From positions 1 through 26,025 of IMG/VR virus record IMGVR_UViG_3300009537_000152: 26,025 nucleotides of DNA; one strand, written 5' to 3'. Shown piece after piece: positions 12,038 to 25,969 of this stretch. The notes under the pieces are model-generated. The model was not told the origin of the DNA, searched no databases, and saw only the letters and a program-made list of their open reading frames with translations. Position 1 is the first letter of the stretch; every line of letters begins with the position of its first letter. This DNA is from a virus. The position numbers and the translations under genes were made by a program.

Positions 12038-12668
12038 GGAAGTAAGAAACCCTATCCCTTGCTATCCTGGATTCAACGTACCGCTTAAGCCTTTGGTCAT
12101 ACCCCCTAAATTCATTGAAGTGCTGGAGGGCTTTGACATAATCCCTTTCCTGGGCGAACAAATCTCCCAGGGCGTATTCAACAATCCCGTAGTGGTATTC
12201 ATCAGGAAATCCCGGCGTATCCGCATCCCCGATCATGCTTGCAGGAAGTGCCGTGTAGTACAGCGTAAAAGACCCCAGGGCATCCGACGAATGGGGGAAA
12301 ATCCCCAATTGCCACAGTCCCCTCAATACACACTTCTCTTCTTCTCCAGTAACCTCTTCCCACTCCAGCCGCTCATTGTCGAGGTCCCGAACGTCCTTGA
12401 ACTCGATCCAGCGGTTTGTCTGGTTGTTAAAAGCATGTTTCGGGGTTAAGACCACATCGCTCCCCAGCGAAGAGGAAAGATCGTAGTACAACTGATCCGC
12501 AACATGCGGAACGACGTAGTTCTTCTCCATCCATTCCGACGAATCCGAGATTTCTTCCAGGCCGTCATTCAGGGCTGCTTTTACATCAGCCAATGCCCAG
12601 AAGCGGGGCGAGGAAGAATTCTCTTCCAATCTCGTAAATATCTCGGTTTGCATTTCCAGGAAAGTCAT
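12030..12668 (-). CDS. Head-tail adaptor/connector-like protein (first of a pair)
   Basis: 212 aa starting MTFLEMQTEIFTRLEE, with an N-terminal helical region (WALADVKAALNDGLEEISDS), a beta-rich centre around YYDLSSSLGSD and WIEFKDVRDLDNERLEWEEV, and a C-terminal helical bundle containing YHYGIVEYALGDLFAQERDY. YGIVxYAxxxLxxxxxDxxKA followed by a Y..R....RIARDR tail is common in phage adaptor proteins that dock on the portal ring. Its ATG overlaps the stop of the GalE gene by 4 nt, so the sugar cassette and tail genes form one transcript. Function inferred from fold pattern and order. Confidence 0.68.
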   Translation of the reverse strand: MTFLEMQTEIFTRLEENSSSPRFWALADVKAALNDGLEEISDSSEWMEKNYVVPHVADQLYYDLSSSLGSDVVLTPKHAFNNQTNRWIEFKDVRDLDNERLEWEEVTGEEEKCVLRGLWQLGIFPHSSDALGSFTLYYTALPASMIGDADTPGFPDEYHYGIVEYALGDLFAQERDYVKALQHFNEFRGYDQRLKRYVESRIARDRVSYFRG

Positions 12669-13600
12669 TGGTTCATCCAGGCCCAGGAAGTTTCAACGAT
12701 GTCCCGCAATGGGCGTTCCGGCTTCCAGCCAAGTAACTTCCTCGCCCTGGAAGCATCCGCAACCAGAATCGCCGGATCGCCAGACCTTCTTGGCCGGGTT
12801 ACGGTTTTGATAGCTCTTCCTGTTACCTCTTCCGCTTCCCGGATAACCTCTCGGACCGAATTCCCGAGTCCGGTCCCAAGGTTCATGGCGGTTGACTTCC
12901 CACCACCTTGCAGATAATCCAAAGCCCGCACGTGGGCATCGGAAATATCGCTGACATGAACGTAATCCCGAATGCAGGTCCCGTCCGGGGTTGGGTAGTC
13001 GTTTCCGAAAATCGACATCTCGGCTCCACCCTTCGCCGCTGATAGGGTTAATGGTATCAAGTGTGTCTCGGGTTTGTGCCTCTCGCCCACTTCCCCATTT
13101 GATCCGGCGGCATTGAAATATCGGAAACTAACAAACTGCAAGTTGGCATGAAGCAAGGCAACCTCGATTCCCAACTTTGATTCCCCGTATGGGTTAACTG
13201 GCCTCAGTGGGGACTCTTCATCAATCGGGATCTCTTTCGGGTTCCCGTAAACTGCCGCCGTAGATGAATAGACGAAGTAGCGAATCCCGGAGTCGAGCGC
13301 CGAGCCTAGCAGGACTTTCCCGGCTGCAAGGTTGTTCTGGCGGTACTTTTCAGGATTCGCGATAGACTCGCTGACAATCGAGGACCCAGCGAAGTGCATC
13401 ACCGCATCCACATCCCGGAGCAGCGGAACCAGTGTCTCCCGATCCCCCACATCTCCCTGAACAAACTGGAATCCGTCTATCGAATCCAGATTCCCCGTCG
13501 AGAGATTATCGTAGGCGATAACCCCATGCCCCGCGCTCCGAAGTTGCCGAATGGCGTGGCTTCCGATATACCCCGCCGCCCCGGTTACTAGAACGCGCAC
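12665..13600 (-). CDS. galE: NAD-dependent sugar-nucleotide epimerase, UDP-glucose 4-epimerase (GalE) type
   Basis: 311 aa short-chain dehydrogenase of the extended epimerase class. Visible motifs are the NAD-binding loop TGAAGYIGS (residues 6-14), D31 after strand two, QGDVGD (48-53), HFAGSS (69-74), catalytic YSSTAAVYG (111-119) with the Y138-x3-K142 pair (NPYGESK), RYFNAAGSN (160-168) and the GalE-like DYPTPDGTCIRDYVHVSDI (201-219). It interconverts UDP-glucose and UDP-galactose, or a related pair such as the N-acetyl or uronic forms; the exact substrate cannot be told. Length is near the family's usual 320-340. It starts with GTG immediately after the preceding stop with little ribosome binding site, so translation is probably coupled. 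An epimerase within a virion operon is unusual. Confidence 0.92.
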   Translation of the reverse strand: MRVLVTGAAGYIGSHAIRQLRSAGHGVIAYDNLSTGNLDSIDGFQFVQGDVGDRETLVPLLRDVDAVMHFAGSSIVSESIANPEKYRQNNLAAGKVLLGSALDSGIRYFVYSSTAAVYGNPKEIPIDEESPLRPVNPYGESKLGIEVALLHANLQFVSFRYFNAAGSNGEVGERHKPETHLIPLTLSAAKGGAEMSIFGNDYPTPDGTCIRDYVHVSDISDAHVRALDYLQGGGKSTAMNLGTGLGNSVREVIREAEEVTGRAIKTVTRPRRSGDPAILVADASRARKLLGWKPERPLRDIVETSWAWMNQ

Positions 13601-13864
13601 CTAGAAGTCAACCGGAACCTGTCTGCCGCCAGACCCGTTCAGTTTGTAAAACTCATCCTCGCTCATAAACTGAATCCGGTTGAAGGTGATGTCTGGCACG
13701 CTTACCTGCGTTACCTGCTCGTGGGAAGGCAGAATGTTCAACTGCCTTGGTTCTACAACGGCCCCAACATCCGTGTTGGCGAGGTTCCAGTCCAGCAAGC
13801 GGAAAGTTCCGTTCTTTCTCTTTTCAATCACCAGCGTTCTGTCGAGTATTGGTCCTTTAGGCAT
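13601..13864 (-). CDS. Small protein of unknown function within the sugar cassette
   Basis: 87 aa, MPKGPILDRTLVIEKRKNG and onwards, with an acidic C-terminal part (MSEDEFYKLNGSGGRQ). No Cys, no membrane segment and no motif I recognise. The ATG overlaps the previous gene by 8 nt and has a strong AAGGAGGA site, so it is translated. It lies exactly between the dehydrogenase-like and epimerase genes. It could be a small partner of the sugar enzymes or an unrelated structural protein. Confidence 0.68.
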   Translation of the reverse strand: MPKGPILDRTLVIEKRKNGTFRLLDWNLANTDVGAVVEPRQLNILPSHEQVTQVSVPDITFNRIQFMSEDEFYKLNGSGGRQVPVDF

Positions 13865-14624
13865 ATACTTCCTCCTTGACGTTTGAAGTCAGATACTTCT
13901 GGTTGATTTCCAGCATCGTCCCTGTCAGCTCGGGTTGATACCCCACACTTTCCGCCCACGCCGCCCATCCATATACATCTTTTGGGATGCACTTGGAATT
14001 GAATCCTCTCTTGTCTGGGTACACGAAGGTCCACCAAAGATTAAATCTCGGGTCGTCTCCATAGACAGCCTCGCGGATTGTATTGTAATCCACCCCGGCC
14101 ATTTTGCAGACATCGTACAACTCCTGGCATTGCGCGACCTTAAACGCAATCGCCCGGTTCTCGCTCAACTTGATAACCTCCGCCTCGTAGTTGGTGACTT
14201 GGCGAATTGAGATGTTGGCGTTGTAGACCGTCTGGTACAGTTCGATAACCCTGGCTCGGTTGAGCGGCTTTCCTCCAAGGATCATAAACTTCCTGGAACC
14301 CATGTCCAGAAATGGGTGCGCTGTGGTTTCCCCCAGGTATTCGGGCTGGTACACGATGTTTCCATAGACCTCTAGCTGGTCACAGGTTCCCGGCATAACC
14401 GTAGATCGAATTACCAGCAAATCTTCCGGGGCATGAGCCACCACACCCTCAACAATGGAGGTATCGAGCTTCCCATCCTTGAGTGGGGTGGGCACACATA
14501 CGAATCCAATGTCTGCCGTGAAGTTGGCTTGGAGATGTAGTGCCGGGTCGTGGATCAGCGCCTTCGGAAATAGCTTGTGCATCGCCCTGCCAACCCAACC
14601 GTAACCATAAATCTTTACCGTCAT
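13857..14624 (-). CDS. UDP-glucose/GDP-mannose dehydrogenase-like protein, short form
   Basis: 255 aa. Motifs follow the nucleotide-sugar 6-dehydrogenase order: GYGWVG dinucleotide loop (7-12), CVPTP (43-47), RSTVMPGT (73-80), QPEYLGE (93-99, the NPEFLRE position), EAEVIKLSEN (147-156) with the Lys and Asn, and KCIPKD (211-216) with the catalytic Cys. These enzymes oxidise the C6 hydroxyl of UDP-glucose or GDP-mannose to the uronate with two NAD. Usual members have about 400-450 aa; here the C-terminal sugar-nucleotide-binding domain is absent, so either activity uses an abbreviated site or the protein has another substrate. It overlaps the glycosyltransferase gene by 4 nt and the next gene by 8 nt. 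The family call is firm; activity is not. Confidence 0.85.
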   Translation of the reverse strand: MTVKIYGYGWVGRAMHKLFPKALIHDPALHLQANFTADIGFVCVPTPLKDGKLDTSIVEGVVAHAPEDLLVIRSTVMPGTCDQLEVYGNIVYQPEYLGETTAHPFLDMGSRKFMILGGKPLNRARVIELYQTVYNANISIRQVTNYEAEVIKLSENRAIAFKVAQCQELYDVCKMAGVDYNTIREAVYGDDPRFNLWWTFVYPDKRGFNSKCIPKDVYGWAAWAESVGYQPELTGTMLEINQKYLTSNVKEEVYA

Positions 14625-16006
14625 TCAGCGCCTCTCTTCATGTAGGTAATTTGGTTGACCGGCATCAACCCCTCCTCCATGCAGGCATTGATGAAATTCT
14701 TCCCGCCGATGTCATAGTGCTCGGGGTGCATGTTATCTTCCAGGATGCCGTTGTTTGAGAACAAGATGCCGTTCGGCTTCAAGCATCGCGCCAATTCCCG
14801 CAATGCCTGCCGCCATTCGGAAATGTGCTCAAGCGAATCCATTGCTACGATAGCATCGTATTTCTCGCCGTTCAGCTCCGGGGAACCTCCCATGGATTCA
14901 AGGACTTTGGCTGTAACTTTGTGCTTTGCCAAACGCCACTTCAGGAATTCCAAAGTTCCCGTTCCCTGGATGTCCATCGCGGTAACATCATGGCCTTTTT
15001 CCGCCAACGTAAATGCCGGTATCCCAATCCCACAGCCGAAGTCCAGCACCTTGAGTTTCTTCGGAACGCTTTCCGCAGAAGAAAGGATAAATTCCGTCAT
15101 GCGCTTCTTGTCTTCGTTGGCTGTGTTGAACCACACCTGCCGACAGACGCGCTCCATCGGAAAGAGCCGGTACCATTCCGCGTCAGGGATATCGTGCTCC
15201 TTGCGCTGCTGCATAAACTCCTGGGCATCGCTGTACACTGCGTCAAGGGTTGGCTTCCCGGTATACTCGAAGGTGTCAACTGCCAGCCGCCGATAGACAT
15301 CCGAGAGAACCATCGACTTCTTCGCTTCGCCCGGCACCGCCCCTTCTAGTTGCAGTTGCTTCCGGTTGCGGCTGGTAATGACGACTTTATCCTTCTTGAT
15401 GTGCCCCAATTCTATCGAGGTATCCGCCCACACCTCTATGCCCTTCTCGGCGGCCTTCTGGCACAACTGAACGTCCGTCCCGTACCGGTGCTCCGGCTCA
15501 AAGAACGGAGGTCCTACCTTGTCGAACACCCGCATCTTAATCAGCAGGCATCCTCCGCCGGCAACGTCTACCTTCTGCAATCCGCCGGTTACCTCGTCAT
15601 CCCGCAGAAAGCGATAGCCGTTTTCGTTGACCTTGTGCATTAACACGGGCTCACAGTTCCCGCCCCTCTGCCAGTAGAGCGCCCCGCAAATATCCTTGTC
15701 GTGGGCAATCATCTTTTCCAAAAACCCATATTCATCTGATGGCCCCGAGGTTACAAACGGGTTGATTACCATGTCATCGTCCAGCATCAGCAGCCAATCG
15801 CAGTTCATCTGCTGGGCCGCTTCGACAATGGCAATCCGGGCGCGAAACTGCTCACTCTTGGTTTTGATCCCTAGGAAGAAGTCGTACCGTGGCATCCTTC
15901 TACCGCAGTGGTAGGCGAAACGCATCCAGTCTTCCAGGACCTCCGGGTCTACCTGCCCATAGCAGGGAACGCCAATCATGATCGTGGGCTTCTTTTCACT
16001 GGACAA
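14621..16006 (-). CDS. Glycosyltransferase (GT-A) fused to SAM-dependent methyltransferase
   Basis: 461 aa. Residues 8-225 are a GT-A fold: TIMIGVPCYG (8-17), DWLLMLDDDMV (70-80) with the DxD-type metal site at 76-78, GTDVQLCQKA (176-185) at the acceptor-base position and ELGHIKKDK (199-207). Residues about 318-460 are a class I methyltransferase: LKVLDFGCGIG (318-328), acidic D345, and AMDSLEHI (388-395), with a C-terminal NNGILE strand. One protein thus probably transfers a sugar and methylates it, or modifies two sites. Start: TTG at 16006, with AAGGAG 7 nt upstream in the transcript; the frame fits. It overlaps the zinc-ribbon gene by 11 nt. Acceptor unknown: virion protein, host glycan or other. 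The order epimerase, dehydrogenase and this enzyme fits synthesis and transfer of one modified sugar. Confidence 0.88.
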   Translation of the reverse strand: MSSEKKPTIMIGVPCYGQVDPEVLEDWMRFAYHCGRRMPRYDFFLGIKTKSEQFRARIAIVEAAQQMNCDWLLMLDDDMVINPFVTSGPSDEYGFLEKMIAHDKDICGALYWQRGGNCEPVLMHKVNENGYRFLRDDEVTGGLQKVDVAGGGCLLIKMRVFDKVGPPFFEPEHRYGTDVQLCQKAAEKGIEVWADTSIELGHIKKDKVVITSRNRKQLQLEGAVPGEAKKSMVLSDVYRRLAVDTFEYTGKPTLDAVYSDAQEFMQQRKEHDIPDAEWYRLFPMERVCRQVWFNTANEDKKRMTEFILSSAESVPKKLKVLDFGCGIGIPAFTLAEKGHDVTAMDIQGTGTLEFLKWRLAKHKVTAKVLESMGGSPELNGEKYDAIVAMDSLEHISEWRQALRELARCLKPNGILFSNNGILEDNMHPEHYDIGGKNFINACMEEGLMPVNQITYMKRGAE

Positions 16007-16253
16007 CGCTGAACTCCTTCAAAAACAAATCGCTGTCAGGGAACGCCAGCGTTCCATCCTGTATCTGCTTGGCCTCTTCCTCTTTGAGAATCGTTACTTC
16101 CACGAACCTTCGGTTCCCGCAATCCCCACAACATCCCAACTTCTGGATGGTCTCAAAAAGCACAAGTTTCTGACAGTCCTTGCAGCGCATGATGTAATCG
16201 TGCGCCCGGCCCTTCTCCTCGTAATAGCGCGGGACGCGAGTTACTTCTTCCAT
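15996..16253 (-). CDS. Small zinc-ribbon protein
   Basis: 85 aa with two Cys pairs, CKDC (about residues 24-27) and CCGDCG (about 41-46), around a short loop: a four-Cys zinc ribbon. The C-terminus is acidic and helical. The ATG follows a strong GGAGGGTT site, 7 nt after the small Cys gene. Such ribbons in phages often bind nucleic acid or RNA polymerase, or stabilise structural proteins; nothing here decides. It lies between the head genes and the sugar cassette. Confidence 0.75.
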   Translation of the reverse strand: MEEVTRVPRYYEEKGRAHDYIMRCKDCQKLVLFETIQKLGCCGDCGNRRFVEVTILKEEEAKQIQDGTLAFPDSDLFLKEFSVVQ

Positions 16254-16260
16254 AACCCTC

Positions 16261-16392
16261 CTATCGTTTCAGAAATCTCTTTGGCTTTGGTTCTGGCTTT
16301 GCTTGCTTTGGTTCATACCGGCACTCGCTCGAATCAAGCCTCGGGCTTGCTCCTGAATAATCCACCCTACATCCACACGGGGCCTGGTTCAT
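16261..16392 (-). CDS. Small Cys/Lys-rich protein, function unknown
   Basis: 43 aa, MNQAPCGCRVDYSGASPRL, then SSECRYEPKQAKPEPKPKRF. It has three Cys (CGC and SEC) and a Lys/Pro-rich tail. The start is chosen because AGGAGG lies 6-7 nt before ATG 16392, the best Shine-Dalgarno site of the neighbourhood; the frame continues upstream but there it would run through the head-surface gene. It ends 7 nt before the zinc-ribbon gene. Too short for a firm family; could be a minor capsid-associated or nucleic-acid-binding protein. Confidence 0.65.
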   Translation of the reverse strand: MNQAPCGCRVDYSGASPRLDSSECRYEPKQAKPEPKPKRFLKR

Positions 16393-16414
16393 TGGGAACC
16401 TCCTGTAAAGTGAG

Positions 16415-16442
16415 TGCCCCTTGTTTATCGGCACAAGGGGCA
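16415..16442 (-). other. Perfect 10-bp stem-loop between head and small-gene transcripts
   Basis: TGCCCCTTGT (16415-16424) pairs with ACAAGGGGCA (16433-16442) around an 8-base loop. In the leftward transcript it lies between the stop of the head-surface gene (16455) and the ribosome binding site of the 43-aa gene. No U-tract follows, so it is more likely an RNA-processing or stability element, or a weak attenuator, than a full terminator. Confidence 0.55.
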
Positions 16443-16454
16443 AAAGCCATCGCG

Positions 16455-16916
16455 CTAAAGGGCCTTGATGAAGACGGCCTTGGCAACGGTGGTCCACTGG
16501 TTCGTGAGCGTCGAAAGCATGAACGCACACGGCCAGATGTGAATGCCCGTGAAGTGGGTCGCAAAGGTTTCGAGGCAAAACACAGAACCCGCCGCATTCA
16601 TAGCCAGCGGCATTCCAGGAGTCGCCACGACGCCCCCACTCGTTACACCACGGACGCGAGTGGCGGAATGGTATCCGTACACCTGAACCAGTCCATAATC
16701 ACCCGCGGCGATGGACGAAGAAGCTACGATCCCGGCAGCCGCAAAGCCCTGATTAGTGGCCCGCGCCGTCGGACGTGTCACTCCCACGCCATCCGCATCC
16801 GTAGTGAAATCCCAGTTAACACCCTGCCCGTTGGTGATTGCCGCCGTCGAATACGAGTTGTAAACGGCGATGAAAATCTTTTCCGGGTCAGTTCGATTTA
16901 CTCTTTGCAGCAACAT
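16455..16916 (-). CDS. Probable head-surface / decoration protein
   Basis: 153 aa starting MLLQRVNRTDPEKIFIAVYN, then a Thr/Val/Gly-rich body with WDFTTDADGVGVTRPTA, ATNQGFAAAGIVA, AAGDYGLVQVYGYHSATRV and a closing SGGVVATPGMPLAMN. This is a beta-sandwich-like composition with no charged tail. It follows the major capsid gene directly, where many phages keep a decoration or minor head protein. The start is supported by GGGAGGA 9 nt upstream of ATG. No catalytic motif. Family name not recognised; a role in the capsid shell or head-tail interface is inferred. Confidence 0.65.
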   Translation of the reverse strand: MLLQRVNRTDPEKIFIAVYNSYSTAAITNGQGVNWDFTTDADGVGVTRPTARATNQGFAAAGIVASSSIAAGDYGLVQVYGYHSATRVRGVTSGGVVATPGMPLAMNAAGSVFCLETFATHFTGIHIWPCAFMLSTLTNQWTTVAKAVFIKAL

Positions 16917-16955
16917 TGTTTGGGGTCCTCCCTGAAAGTGTTTTCAAAACAGAGA

Positions 16956-16989
16956 GGGACAGCCTATCCATACGGAATGCGGCTATCCC
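16956..16989 (-). terminator. Probable terminator after the major capsid gene
   Basis: In the leftward transcript GGGATAGCC (from 16989) and GGCTGTCCC (to 16956) form a 9-bp stem with one G-U pair and a 16-base loop, followed by TCTCTGTTTTG. It lies between the capsid stop (17010) and the next start (16916). A partial terminator here would keep capsid expression above that of downstream tail genes. Confidence 0.5.
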
Positions 16990-17009
16990 CCTGAAAAGGG
17001 TTTACGGCC

Positions 17010-23973: not shown

Positions 23974-23989
23974 TGTTTCACGTGAAACA
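23974..23989. promoter_or_regulatory. parS-type ParB-binding site
   Basis: TGTTTCACGTGAAACA is a perfect 16-bp palindrome (18 bp counting the outer A and T) and matches the bacterial chromosomal parS consensus TGTTNCACGTGAAACA exactly. Chance occurrence in 26 kb is negligible. ParB loads here as a CTP-dependent clamp and spreads. No parA or parB gene is present in the window, so the host's ParB is the likely partner unless the phage encodes its own elsewhere. Confidence 0.85.
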
Positions 23990-24237: not shown

Positions 24238-24311
24238 TTGGGAGCACAACACGATCGGCTGATGCGGATGCGAGTGCAACGGGCTATCCCGTCAACGTCA
24301 AAACCTTGACA

Positions 24312-24361
24312 CTGTCGAAATATTGACAGTTTGGTCTTACATGGTGTCAGGATATTGACAC
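24312..24361. promoter_or_regulatory. Pair of TGTC-N8-GACA palindromic operator-like sites
   Basis: CTGTCGAAATATTGACAG (24312-24329) and GTGTCAGGATATTGACAC (24344-24361) share TGTC, ATATTGACA and dyad symmetry, with starts 32 bp apart, about three helical turns. A third related element, GTCAAAACCTTGAC (24297-24310), lies just before. The site pair ends at the stop of the small terminase gene. TGACAG also recurs near the 23.6 kb promoters, suggesting one regulator. Confidence 0.5.
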
Positions 24362-24362
24362 A

Positions 24363-24791
24363 CTACTGGTCCTGGTCTGGAGTGATGTTGATGGCCGGCG
24401 CGTCCACGGTGATCTTGACTGCAGATCCTGGAGGCAGGTGGAACATGGGTTGCCGCTCTTCGGTCTTTGGTGGTTCTTCCTTGGTTAGCTGGCCAAATTG
24501 AATATGATCGATGCGCTCAAGAGCTTTGAGAGATACCATTAATTGACTGTCCTGGTTGATGAGTTGGGCGTAGCGTTCAGCACGTTGTTCCGGCGGGATC
24601 TTGTCTAACAGGGTGCGGCGATAACTGTTGAGGAGCTCGCGCTGTTCCTCGTCGTTGAGGGAGATTTCCCCTTTGACTTTGGCCACCATGCTCAGCGAAC
24701 AGCCGGCTGTTTGGGCGATATCGCGTACACTGGCACCCGTGGCCAGCAGCGCAGTGATTCTCGCCCTTTTTTTCAGGTCTTTGGTCCTCAT
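24363..24791 (-). CDS. terS: Small-terminase-like HTH DNA-binding protein
   Basis: 142 aa from ATG 24791 (a TTG at 24827 would add 12 residues but has no ribosome binding site). Residues 7-40 form a clear helix-turn-helix: KKRARITALLATGASVRDIA then QTAGCSLSMVAKVKGE. A helical oligomerisation part with ERYAQLINQDSQLMVSLKAL follows, then a C-terminal PMFHLPPGSAVKITVDAPA beta segment. HTH, helical multimer and a beta tail ending in PPGxxVxITV is the usual design of phage small terminase subunits, which bind the pac/cos site and hand DNA to the large subunit. It lies 1.4 kb from the large subunit, with the control region between. An unrelated regulator cannot be ruled out. Confidence 0.65.
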   Translation of the reverse strand: MRTKDLKKRARITALLATGASVRDIAQTAGCSLSMVAKVKGEISLNDEEQRELLNSYRRTLLDKIPPEQRAERYAQLINQDSQLMVSLKALERIDHIQFGQLTKEEPPKTEERQPMFHLPPGSAVKITVDAPAINITPDQDQ

Positions 24792-24833
24792 ATCTCTTTT
24801 TATCGCACTAATATTGATAGATTGCAAGCTTTT

Positions 24834-24886: not shown

Positions 24887-24911
24887 TCGCCTTTCCTTCC
24901 GTGCCATCCTT

Positions 24912-24983
24912 TTGACAGCACTATCTGTTGTGGTCTAGGTGTGCCTGATAGCACTATATTTTGGGGCTTGTAATAGCACTATC
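24912..24983 (+). promoter_or_regulatory. Rightward promoter region with three AGCACTATC operator-like repeats
   Basis: AGCACTATC (24917-24925), AGCACTATA (24950-24958) and AGCACTATC (24975-24983) are within longer dyads of the type GATAGcaCTATC. The first overlaps a consensus TTGACA (24912-24917), the second a TATATT (24955-24960). TTGACA lacks a good -10 at normal distance, and TATATT has a poor -35 (TGGTCT at 18 bp), so the promoter may need an activator or the repeats may be repressor sites. Transcription would enter the small-gene run at 25036. Confidence 0.45.
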
Positions 24984-25002
24984 AGTGGATTATCATTGGG
25001 TT

Positions 25003-25027
25003 GTTAGAGCGGAGACCAAACAGGAGG
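25003..25027 (+). repeat. Degenerate first copy of the leader element (3' part only)
   Basis: GTTAGAGCGGAGACCAAAC followed by AGGAGG corresponds to the 3' part of the elements found later (ATTAGCGGA..ACCAA..GGAGG), without the two hairpins. It supplies the ribosome binding site of the first small gene. Confidence 0.5.
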
Positions 25028-25035
25028 AGGACAGA

Positions 25036-25260
25036 ATGAACACTGACGCTGAGCATAAAGCACTAGTCATTATTGACAACGCGGTCAGGGAGTTGTACCA
25101 CACTACAATGCGCGACAGCGAGCGCAATCCCTACACTGATAGAACAGCCTTTGAAACACTCTGTCATGCCCACGCTTGGATTGCCATGCTCGATCCGGCA
25201 TGGCGTAAAGCTTGCGGCTACCGCTCATTTGAGCAAGCTTGCAAGGCAGTATTCGCCTAG
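25036..25260 (+). CDS. Small early-type protein of unknown function
   Basis: 74 aa from ATG 25036 with GGAGGAGG 5-6 nt upstream; an in-frame TTG further left lacks a site. It begins MNTDAEHKALVIIDNAVREL, with a helical middle (RTAFETLCHAHAWIAML) and DPAWRKACGYRSFEQACKAV. The helical, mixed-charge design with two or three Cys has no family I know. First of a run of very small rightward genes, its stop TAG abutting the leader element of the next gene. Confidence 0.65.
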   Translation: MNTDAEHKALVIIDNAVRELYHTTMRDSERNPYTDRTAFETLCHAHAWIAMLDPAWRKACGYRSFEQACKAVFA

Positions 25261-25323
25261 CCGCGATCTGCCAGCTTGTCCTCGGAGAGCGAGCACACCG
25301 CGATTAGCGGAAACCAATGGAGG
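25261..25323 (+). repeat. Two-hairpin leader element, copy A
   Basis: Starts directly after the TAG of the preceding gene with CCGCGAT, then hairpin 1 (25274-25294, seven or eight pairs with one mismatch, loop TCGGA), hairpin 2 CCGCGATTAGCGG (25298-25310) and AAACCAATGGAGG, whose GGAGG is the ribosome binding site for the next gene. Confidence 0.72.
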
Positions 25324-25331
25324 GAAACAGA

Positions 25332-25547
25332 ATGGAACGACGAACACAGGAGGGACACATGAAAACGTACATAATCTACAGACGAGAACCGGTCCGGCCA
25401 GAGCATGGCGGGCGGAATACCGCATCTGGTTATTGCTGGGTTAATCGCGGCGAGGAGCGATCGGTCAACCCTCATCGCGCTATCGCGCAACACCGGCAGC
25501 GCAATCCATCAGATCAGCATGCCAGACTCCGCACAGCTCGCTGCTAG
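25332..25547 (+). CDS. Small basic protein of unknown function
   Basis: 71 aa from ATG 25332, 8 nt after the GGAGG of leader element A, as in the other copies; an ATG at 25359 has its own AGGAGG upstream and would give 62 aa. The sequence includes MKTYIIYRREPVRPEHGGR and an Arg/His/Gln-rich end (HRAIAQHRQRNPSDQHARLR), strongly basic and without hydrophobic segments, perhaps nucleic-acid binding. It ends with TAG, next to copy B. Confidence 0.58.
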   Translation: MERRTQEGHMKTYIIYRREPVRPEHGGRNTASGYCWVNRGEERSVNPHRAIAQHRQRNPSDQHARLRTARC

Positions 25548-25606
25548 CCGCGATCTCTGCTCCTACCGGGAGTAGAGACCGCGATTAGCGGAGAACCAAA
25601 TGGAGG
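25548..25606 (+). repeat. Two-hairpin leader element, copy B
   Basis: CCGCGAT follows the stop TAG. Hairpin 1: TCTCTGCTCC (25554-25563) with GGAGTAGAGA (25569-25578), ten pairs with one G-U, loop TACCG. Hairpin 2: CCGCGATTAGCGG (25579-25591), then AGAACCAAATGGAGG. Hairpin 1 differs in sequence from copies A and C but keeps its pairing. Confidence 0.75.
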
Positions 25607-25612
25607 GCAGAA

Positions 25613-25777
25613 ATGAAACGATATACTGATCCATTCGCAGCGCTCGAAACACTCCAAGCTCAAATAGCTAAGGCTAGCCAAGACGATCGCGACGGAGATG
25701 CCGATACGCTAGGCCAAGTGGAAGCATTTTTGGTGAATTTGATCTCCGCCCCTACCGGGGGCGGTGACCGCGATTAG
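25613..25777 (+). CDS. Small acidic protein running into the next leader
   Basis: 54 aa from ATG 25613, six nt after GGAGG: MKRYTDPFAALETLQAQIAK, then an acidic SQDDRDGDADTLGQ and a short hydrophobic VEAFLVNLI. The frame continues through hairpin 1 of copy C (residues APTGGGDRD) and stops at the TAG inside CCGCGATTAGCGG, so protein end and leader overlap. Function unknown; the helical, acidic make-up could suit a small inhibitor. Confidence 0.6.
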   Translation: MKRYTDPFAALETLQAQIAKASQDDRDGDADTLGQVEAFLVNLISAPTGGGDRD

Positions 25778-25793
25778 CGGAAACCAATGGAGG
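25746..25793 (+). repeat. Two-hairpin leader element, copy C
   Basis: Hairpin 1: CCGCCCC (25746-25752) with GGGGCGG (25758-25764), seven GC pairs and loop TACCG as in copy B. Hairpin 2: CCGCGATTAGCGG (25768-25780), then AAACCAATGGAGG. The leading CCGCGAT of copies A and B is lacking because the previous gene reads through. Confidence 0.75.
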
Positions 25794-25801
25794 AAACCAA
25801 C

Positions 25802-25969
25802 ATGAACACTTGCGACGAATGCAACGCCGTGGTTAGACACGCCGGCGATATCTGTGAGGATTGCGCCGACATGGGGTATGCGCTGCACAATGAGCGTGCC
25901 GGCGTTAGCCTAGATGTCTATTGTGAAGGGGAAACGAATGACCTGCCCACACTGCAAGGCCGAGTTTGA
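25802..25969 (+). CDS. Small Zn-ribbon-like protein
   Basis: 55 aa from ATG 25802, 8 nt after the GGAGG of leader copy C: MNTCDECNAVVRHAGDICED, then CADMGYALHNERAGVSLDVY. The pairs CDEC (4-7) and CEDC (18-21) form a typical treble-clef or ribbon zinc site. The next gene starts inside it (25938) in another frame. Confidence 0.65.
   Translation: MNTCDECNAVVRHAGDICEDCADMGYALHNERAGVSLDVYCEGETNDLPTLQGRV

Follow-up and report, generated by a model that had tools for sequence, protein, structure and literature searches.

Why would unrelated small genes at the end of a phage record each begin behind the same short, hairpin-bearing sequence, and does that sequence act in RNA, act in DNA, or chiefly record how the genes were copied? 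The locus that raises the question lies in the window, the whole stretch of DNA analysed here, a viral record of 26,025 nt that ends 56 nt past gene C of Table 1. Its leftward operon gives weak-to-clear matches to terminase, portal, major head and structural proteins, which identifies the source as a tailed phage; in a search of 50,697 phage records, the best terminase and capsid matches remained below 60% identity. Small rightward genes begin at 25036 and continue to the end of the record. Those that carry the leader are all on the + strand and outside the leftward structural operon.

The repeated leader and the genes behind it

Three full copies of the leader, A, B and C, contain the 13-nt hairpin CCGCGATTAGCGG (hairpin 2, 4 bp), which occurs exactly at 25298, 25579 and 25768, each time on the + strand, and nowhere else in the record; with up to 3 mismatches allowed, its 12 matches in the window are near the chance expectation of 8.5. 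The hairpin is followed by an ACCAA..GGAGG block, present five times in the window against 0.56 expected, a count reached by none of 100 shuffles, and four of the five occurrences are leaders A, B and C and a degenerate copy. Five 11-mers are common to three starts in the window, compared with 0 in each of three shuffles. The end of hairpin 2 lies exactly 21 nt before the ATG in all three leaders. The ATG follows GGAGG by 8, 6 and 8 nt in A, B and C, matching the 6-8 nt given by an earlier reading made from the sequence only, and in leader B the 21-nt spacing, which that reading does not mention, is maintained through offsetting indels around GGAGG.

Table 1. Leader copies and small rightward genes, in positions of the window (gene A to gene C follow the leader of the same letter)
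Feature	Position	Strand	Description
Copy 0 (degenerate)	25008-25035	+	AGCGGAGACCAA then GGAGG, before gene 25036
Small gene 0	25036-25260	+	74 aa, no family match; stop TAG adjoins leader A
Leader A	25261-25331	+	CCGCGATCT at 25261-25269; weak first stem 25274-25294; ATG served 25332
Leader A, downstream part		+	hairpin 2 25298-25310; ACCAA 25313-25317; GGAGG 25319-25323
Small gene A	25332-25547	+	71 aa, no family match
Leader B	25548-25612	+	CCGCGATCT at 25548-25556; stem 1 25554-25563 with 25569-25578; ATG served 25613
Leader B, downstream part		+	hairpin 2 25579-25591; GGAGG 25602-25606
Small gene B	25613-25777	+	54 aa, weak PHROG match only (E 0.059)
Leader C	25741-25801	+	stem 1 25743-25752 with 25758-25767; hairpin 2 25768-25780; ATG served 25802
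Leader C, downstream part		+	ACCAA 25783-25787; GGAGG 25789-25793
Small gene C	25802-25969	+	55 aa, four early Cys, no family match

The sequence-only reading had credited the hairpin to three full copies and a degenerate one at 25003; it is present in A, B and C, while the degenerate copy retains only AGCGGAGACCAA..GGAGG, lacks a hairpin and gives no fold signal (z 0.47). The same reading had placed the leader before each small rightward gene, which was too broad: the gene at 25036 has a remnant only, and the next gene, with its ATG at 25938, has no leader when the sequence is read by eye, so the leader is absent from some small genes. The sample comprises three copies from one truncated genome, and since a 27-nt block is identical in leaders A and C, these two are not independent. 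Leaders B and C are 85% identical across 41 nt. Likeness between copies ends at the leader, and the flanks have diverged. The TAG of the upstream gene adjoins the left repeat in A and B and falls within hairpin 2 in C, so that in all three cases the upstream stop is either part of the leader or next to it; the 3' end of gene B encodes most of leader C. Gene A has an alternative start, with a second Shine-Dalgarno sequence (SD) and an in-frame ATG at 25359. The small proteins, for which family matches were judged at the default cut-off, are mutually dissimilar when compared by eye.

Other features of the window were recorded alongside the leader. Genes for a sugar epimerase, a UDP-glucose dehydrogenase-like protein and a methyltransferase lie within the structural operon at 12665-16006. 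A rightward open reading frame of 338 aa at 15978-16994 has a translation that matches loci of 13 relatives, on the strand opposite the capsid gene, and could be a shadow frame of a gene running leftward. Positions 23974-23989, in non-coding DNA to the right of the structural operon, read TGTTTCACGTGAAACA, identical to the bacterial parS consensus, with one more match, at 2 mismatches (L080), in the 1.84 Mb scanned. Three repeats like TGTCNNNNNNNNGACA, two of them exact, occupy 24296-24360 near the leftward HTH gene (24363-24827) and are possible operators. Two copies and a near copy of TAGCACTAT surround a sigma-70-like site (24968-24996) at 24911-24990, just before the rightward operon.

Predicted folding of the leader

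The stretches preceding the starts of genes A, B and C have more stable predicted folds than their shuffles (z -2.83, -4.03 and -3.28). Across 26 sources, the window included, z fell below -2 at 9 of 144 starts on the opposite strand and at 50 of 508 on the same strand, and no family-wide hairpin before early starts was seen among the 144 opposite-strand starts (mean z -0.12). Stem 1, which precedes hairpin 2, has the loop TACCG in B and C and is strong in both (z -5.04 and -3.22), whereas in A it is at the level of shuffles (p 0.305 and 0.336; z 0.27). The proposal that the upstream stem differs in sequence yet pairs in every copy is therefore supported for B and C and not for A, and covariation rests on the comparison of B with C. 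Over 41 positions these two have 6 differences: two pairs are altered on both sides, one changes from G-T to G-C and one from T-A to T-T, so that pairing is kept in five of the six differences, four of which make up the two double changes. In a rough simulation that placed six random substitutions over 27 nt, nine pairs together with two double changes were kept in 0.7% of trials, a figure that assumes independent changes, an assumption that template switching within a palindrome would violate. In the three-copy alignment, the share of paired cells was reached by 92 of 500 shuffles and the covariation score by 66 of 500, and because of the latter the covariation of stem 1 is suggestive only. 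Predicted accessibility of the SD varies among the copies and with the folded length, so no single shared effect on translation is apparent.

A second CCGCGATC is located upstream in leaders A and B, as had been pointed out earlier together with the idea of a translational switch in which this upstream CCGCGAT competes with hairpin 2. The competing pairing is dominant in B only, where a single long, imperfect hairpin can form at the expense of hairpin 2 and is 6.5 kcal/mol more favourable than the fold in which hairpin 2 is enforced; the predicted probability of hairpin 2 there is 0.0, and an isolated 52-nt piece of A also adopts the alternative pairing. In longer context, however, hairpin 2 stays at a probability of at least 0.97 in A and C, which form only short stems beside it, and leader C is without the competing upstream repeat. 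With B favouring the long hairpin and A and C keeping hairpin 2, a switch shared by the leaders is highly improbable.

Occurrence in relatives and likeness to known repeats

Capsid searches gave 86 distinct loci (12 and 80, with 6 common to both), none of which has the hairpin, at up to 2 mismatches, ahead of the ACCAA..GGAGG block. For 50 of the 86 relatives the whole record was scanned with one of two patterns, giving 0 of 10 and 0 of 40. The closest relative (L022, 85% capsid identity) is a 6.5-kb piece ending short of the early region, so the absence of the leader concerns less close relatives only; searches through gene A and through the HTH gene returned no relatives. A covariance model built from the three leader copies recovers all three and finds four weak matches among 84 other sources (L005, 20.8 bits; L060, 16.2; L112, 13.5; L085, 10.8), as well as weak matches in 3 of 24 whole records. 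The search of other phages with such a model, which the sequence-only reading had suggested, thus returned only weak, chance-like matches beyond the leader's own copies, and since none of the relatives searched carries the leader, conservation of its pairing is not shown in them.

Scans for the exact motif found 3 matches in viral contigs and 15 in genome contigs, one per locus and none with GGAGG at the leader spacing, and no multi-copy match to the leader was present in the viral or species-genome collections. The pattern ATTAGCGG..ACCAA..GGAGG had 0 matches, and AGCGGA..ACCAA..GGAGG had 20 single matches, the hairpin being found in none. Leader C compared by blastn with phages and plasmids gave E values of 1 or more only, and Rfam 15 held no family above threshold, the sub-threshold SymR hit being on the other strand (21.2 against 61 bits). 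Individual matches were set aside. The L005 match lies before the start of another gene, with GGAGG and ATG 34 nt on and the preceding gene ending in the motif's TAG; the copy stands alone, before an open frame of 223 aa, presumably a tape-measure-like gene, and was taken as chance. The L060 match (GGAACCAATGGAGGGAACC..ATG), on the strand opposite the capsid gene and about 2.4 kb from it, was likewise taken as chance, without proof. In L112, a hairpin copy with two mismatches precedes GGAGG and ATG, with the stem unpaired and ACCAA absent.

A comparable arrangement was found in G018 (L141), which has 52% capsid identity. Its repeated leader, CGAGCGCCCAGACAC, stands before four successive starts (228, 579, 895 and 1176), those of the first four genes of its early operon, on the - strand, opposite the capsid gene and about 10 kb upstream of it; the fourth copy retains only the end, CCAGACACAGGAG. 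A scan of the collection found three copies in the record itself and single matches in two others. Like the window leader, it belongs to the same phage group, lies in a divergent early operon and sits shortly, or directly, after a TAG stop and before an SD; unlike the window leader, with which CGAGCGCCCAGACAC shares no relationship, it has a hairpin no more stable than shuffles (z -0.68 to 0.87). Among 81 records examined for shared 11-mers, mostly fragments, 10 have 11-mers common to three starts: the window, G018 and eight others, some with isolated k-mers of a kind also seen in shuffles. The 11-mers shared in G006, G026 and L095 span little beyond the SD, and in G026 they precede related proteins. 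Leaders of such length at the head of the early operon are thus seen twice in the group, in the window and in G018, with unrelated sequences. Further repeats were noted in the collection: a two-copy candidate, CATrGGTCsCATTAGGGTAAC, in G025; five copies of GACGTACC(C)TCGGGGAGTCGG on the - strand of G022 (L145) at 48, 1308, 4390, 6791 and 9797, with no clear link to gene starts; and a palindrome, TTGTCCAA-ATTTGGACAA, directly 5' of the SD at starts 926 and 11617 on the + strand of L094.

Descriptions of start-associated repeats in actinobacterial phages go back to 2011, and in the excerpts available their role is still called unclear. According to the excerpted text of PMC3203893, the start-associated sequence (SAS) of cluster K mycobacteriophages is a short stretch of conserved sequence located at the SD of some of the non-structural genes, which belong to different families and mostly share one orientation, and the motif can contain upstream stop codons. 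About half of the copies have a second upstream element, ESAS, consisting of imperfect 17-bp inverted repeats with a variable spacer and arms conserved in sequence; departures in the arms generally do not support RNA pairing, and Pope et al. favoured DNA-binding proteins (PMC3203893, same excerpts). The ESAS copies of Adephagia hold SigA-like promoters (PMC11373665), and a later survey is given in PMC12699233. Microbacterium phages of clusters EF, EC and EG have group-specific repeats close to start codons or as far as 30 bp ahead of them; inverted repeats are among them, sequences are unrelated between groups, and those of cluster EG are 18-bp inverted repeats 14-22 bp before starts (excerpts of PMC7302621).

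The window leader resembles the cluster K SAS, as far as the PMC3203893 excerpts describe it, in having an SD motif, non-structural genes, one orientation and an upstream stop in the motif. It differs in sequence: compared by eye, the cluster K consensus GGGATAGGAGCCC is not matched within two mismatches, and the SD block of the leader, CCAATGGAGGGAA, lacks the GGG/CCC frame. In contrast to the conserved ESAS arms of the same excerpts, the inner arms differ in A, B and C, and those of B and C still pair; the outer CCGCGAT is common only to leaders A and B. In a simple consensus scan, no SigA-like -35/-10 was found in the three leaders, in contrast to the Adephagia copies of the PMC11373665 excerpt. 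As a group-specific repeat close to starts, the leader also resembles the Microbacterium repeats, although the EG palindrome GATCAACCNNGGTTGATC is common to three phages (PMC7302621), while the window leader has a different sequence and is found in one genome. A repeated conserved motif that includes the SD, 6-8 nt before the ATG, at non-structural genes of different families in one orientation places it in the broad SAS class. No report of this leader was found in the literature on phage start-associated repeats, a result that is not proof of absence, and a literature search for HK022 put RNA as a two-hairpin parallel gave no match. The leader is a new, so far single-genome example of a known start-associated kind.

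What the leader may do

The best explanation, given a probability of about one half, is that the leader is phage-specific and start-associated, stands before successive small early genes and works at the level of mRNA as a standard translation-initiation module. Its elements are read directly from the sequence: the SD is strong, the ACCAA spacer is conserved, and the 3' edge of the 4-bp hairpin lies 21 nt before the AUG. The 30S initiation complex would end about where this edge sits, so the hairpin would fence the ribosome-binding site off from the upstream coding RNA; this fence could give unrelated genes the same initiation rate, or a common factor might read the hairpin. In B and C the fence would be strengthened by the upstream stem, and predicted folds of these two copies suggest that ribosomes ending the upstream gene may open the structure that pairs with the SD, producing some coupling. 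The coordinated translational control proposed earlier survives to the extent that the leader is shared and its position relative to SD and ATG fits a role in initiation; the shared switch does not.

If each leader were instead a DNA site that a phage or host protein binds, with an imperfect inverted repeat serving as operator or promoter, the imperfect palindrome of copy B, with about 21 bp per arm, would be accounted for, in keeping with the descriptions of the Adephagia promoters (PMC11373665), of the proteins favoured by Pope et al. (PMC3203893) and of the EG inverted repeats (PMC7302621). Yet the conserved block takes in the SD and keeps its distance to the ATG, the inner arms of B and C change with pairing kept, the left half-site is lost in C, and A, B and C have no forward sigma-70-like site, the only forward-strand one being that at 24968-24996. 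RNA-level control is best supported because of the block that includes the SD, the kept AUG distance and the lack of a promoter-like site, and a DNA element is regarded as a serious though unlikely alternative. The exact 21-nt spacing and an identical hairpin beside diverged flanks also suggest constraint, which speaks against the leader being mainly a trace of recent duplication, spread by copying or cassette exchange, with compensating changes produced by template switching in a palindrome rather than by selection. This account, which draws on the 85% identity of B and C, on the bordering genes without family matches and on the upstream TAG supplied or bordered in every copy, is judged distinctly improbable. 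Cassette shuffling of leader-gene units, raised by the sequence-only reading, may nevertheless have occurred: likeness stops at the leader and the small proteins are dissimilar by eye, with no swapped cassette seen in the relatives searched. Slightly less probable still is a role in mRNA processing or stability, in which RNases would cut the hairpins, or the hairpins would block decay, giving each cistron its own 5' end; the copies do lie between cistrons, directly before the SD, and B can form a long hairpin, but the short stems of A and C next to hairpin 2 and the lack of an Rfam family above threshold argue otherwise.

A more specific form of RNA-level action is put forward tentatively, with odds well short of even. 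The element may be recognised as an RNA structure rather than as a sequence, through a fixed hairpin 21 nt from the AUG and a stem free in sequence with its pairing kept, which would place unrelated early genes under one shared control of initiation, with a phage RNA-binding protein as a possible mediator. The fixed AUG spacing and the differing yet pairing stems point to RNA and offer a sharper test than earlier repeats did. The leader comes from an uncultivated phage group, and its comparison with G018 suggests a repeated origin of such leaders, with differing sequences, at the heads of early operons within one phage group.
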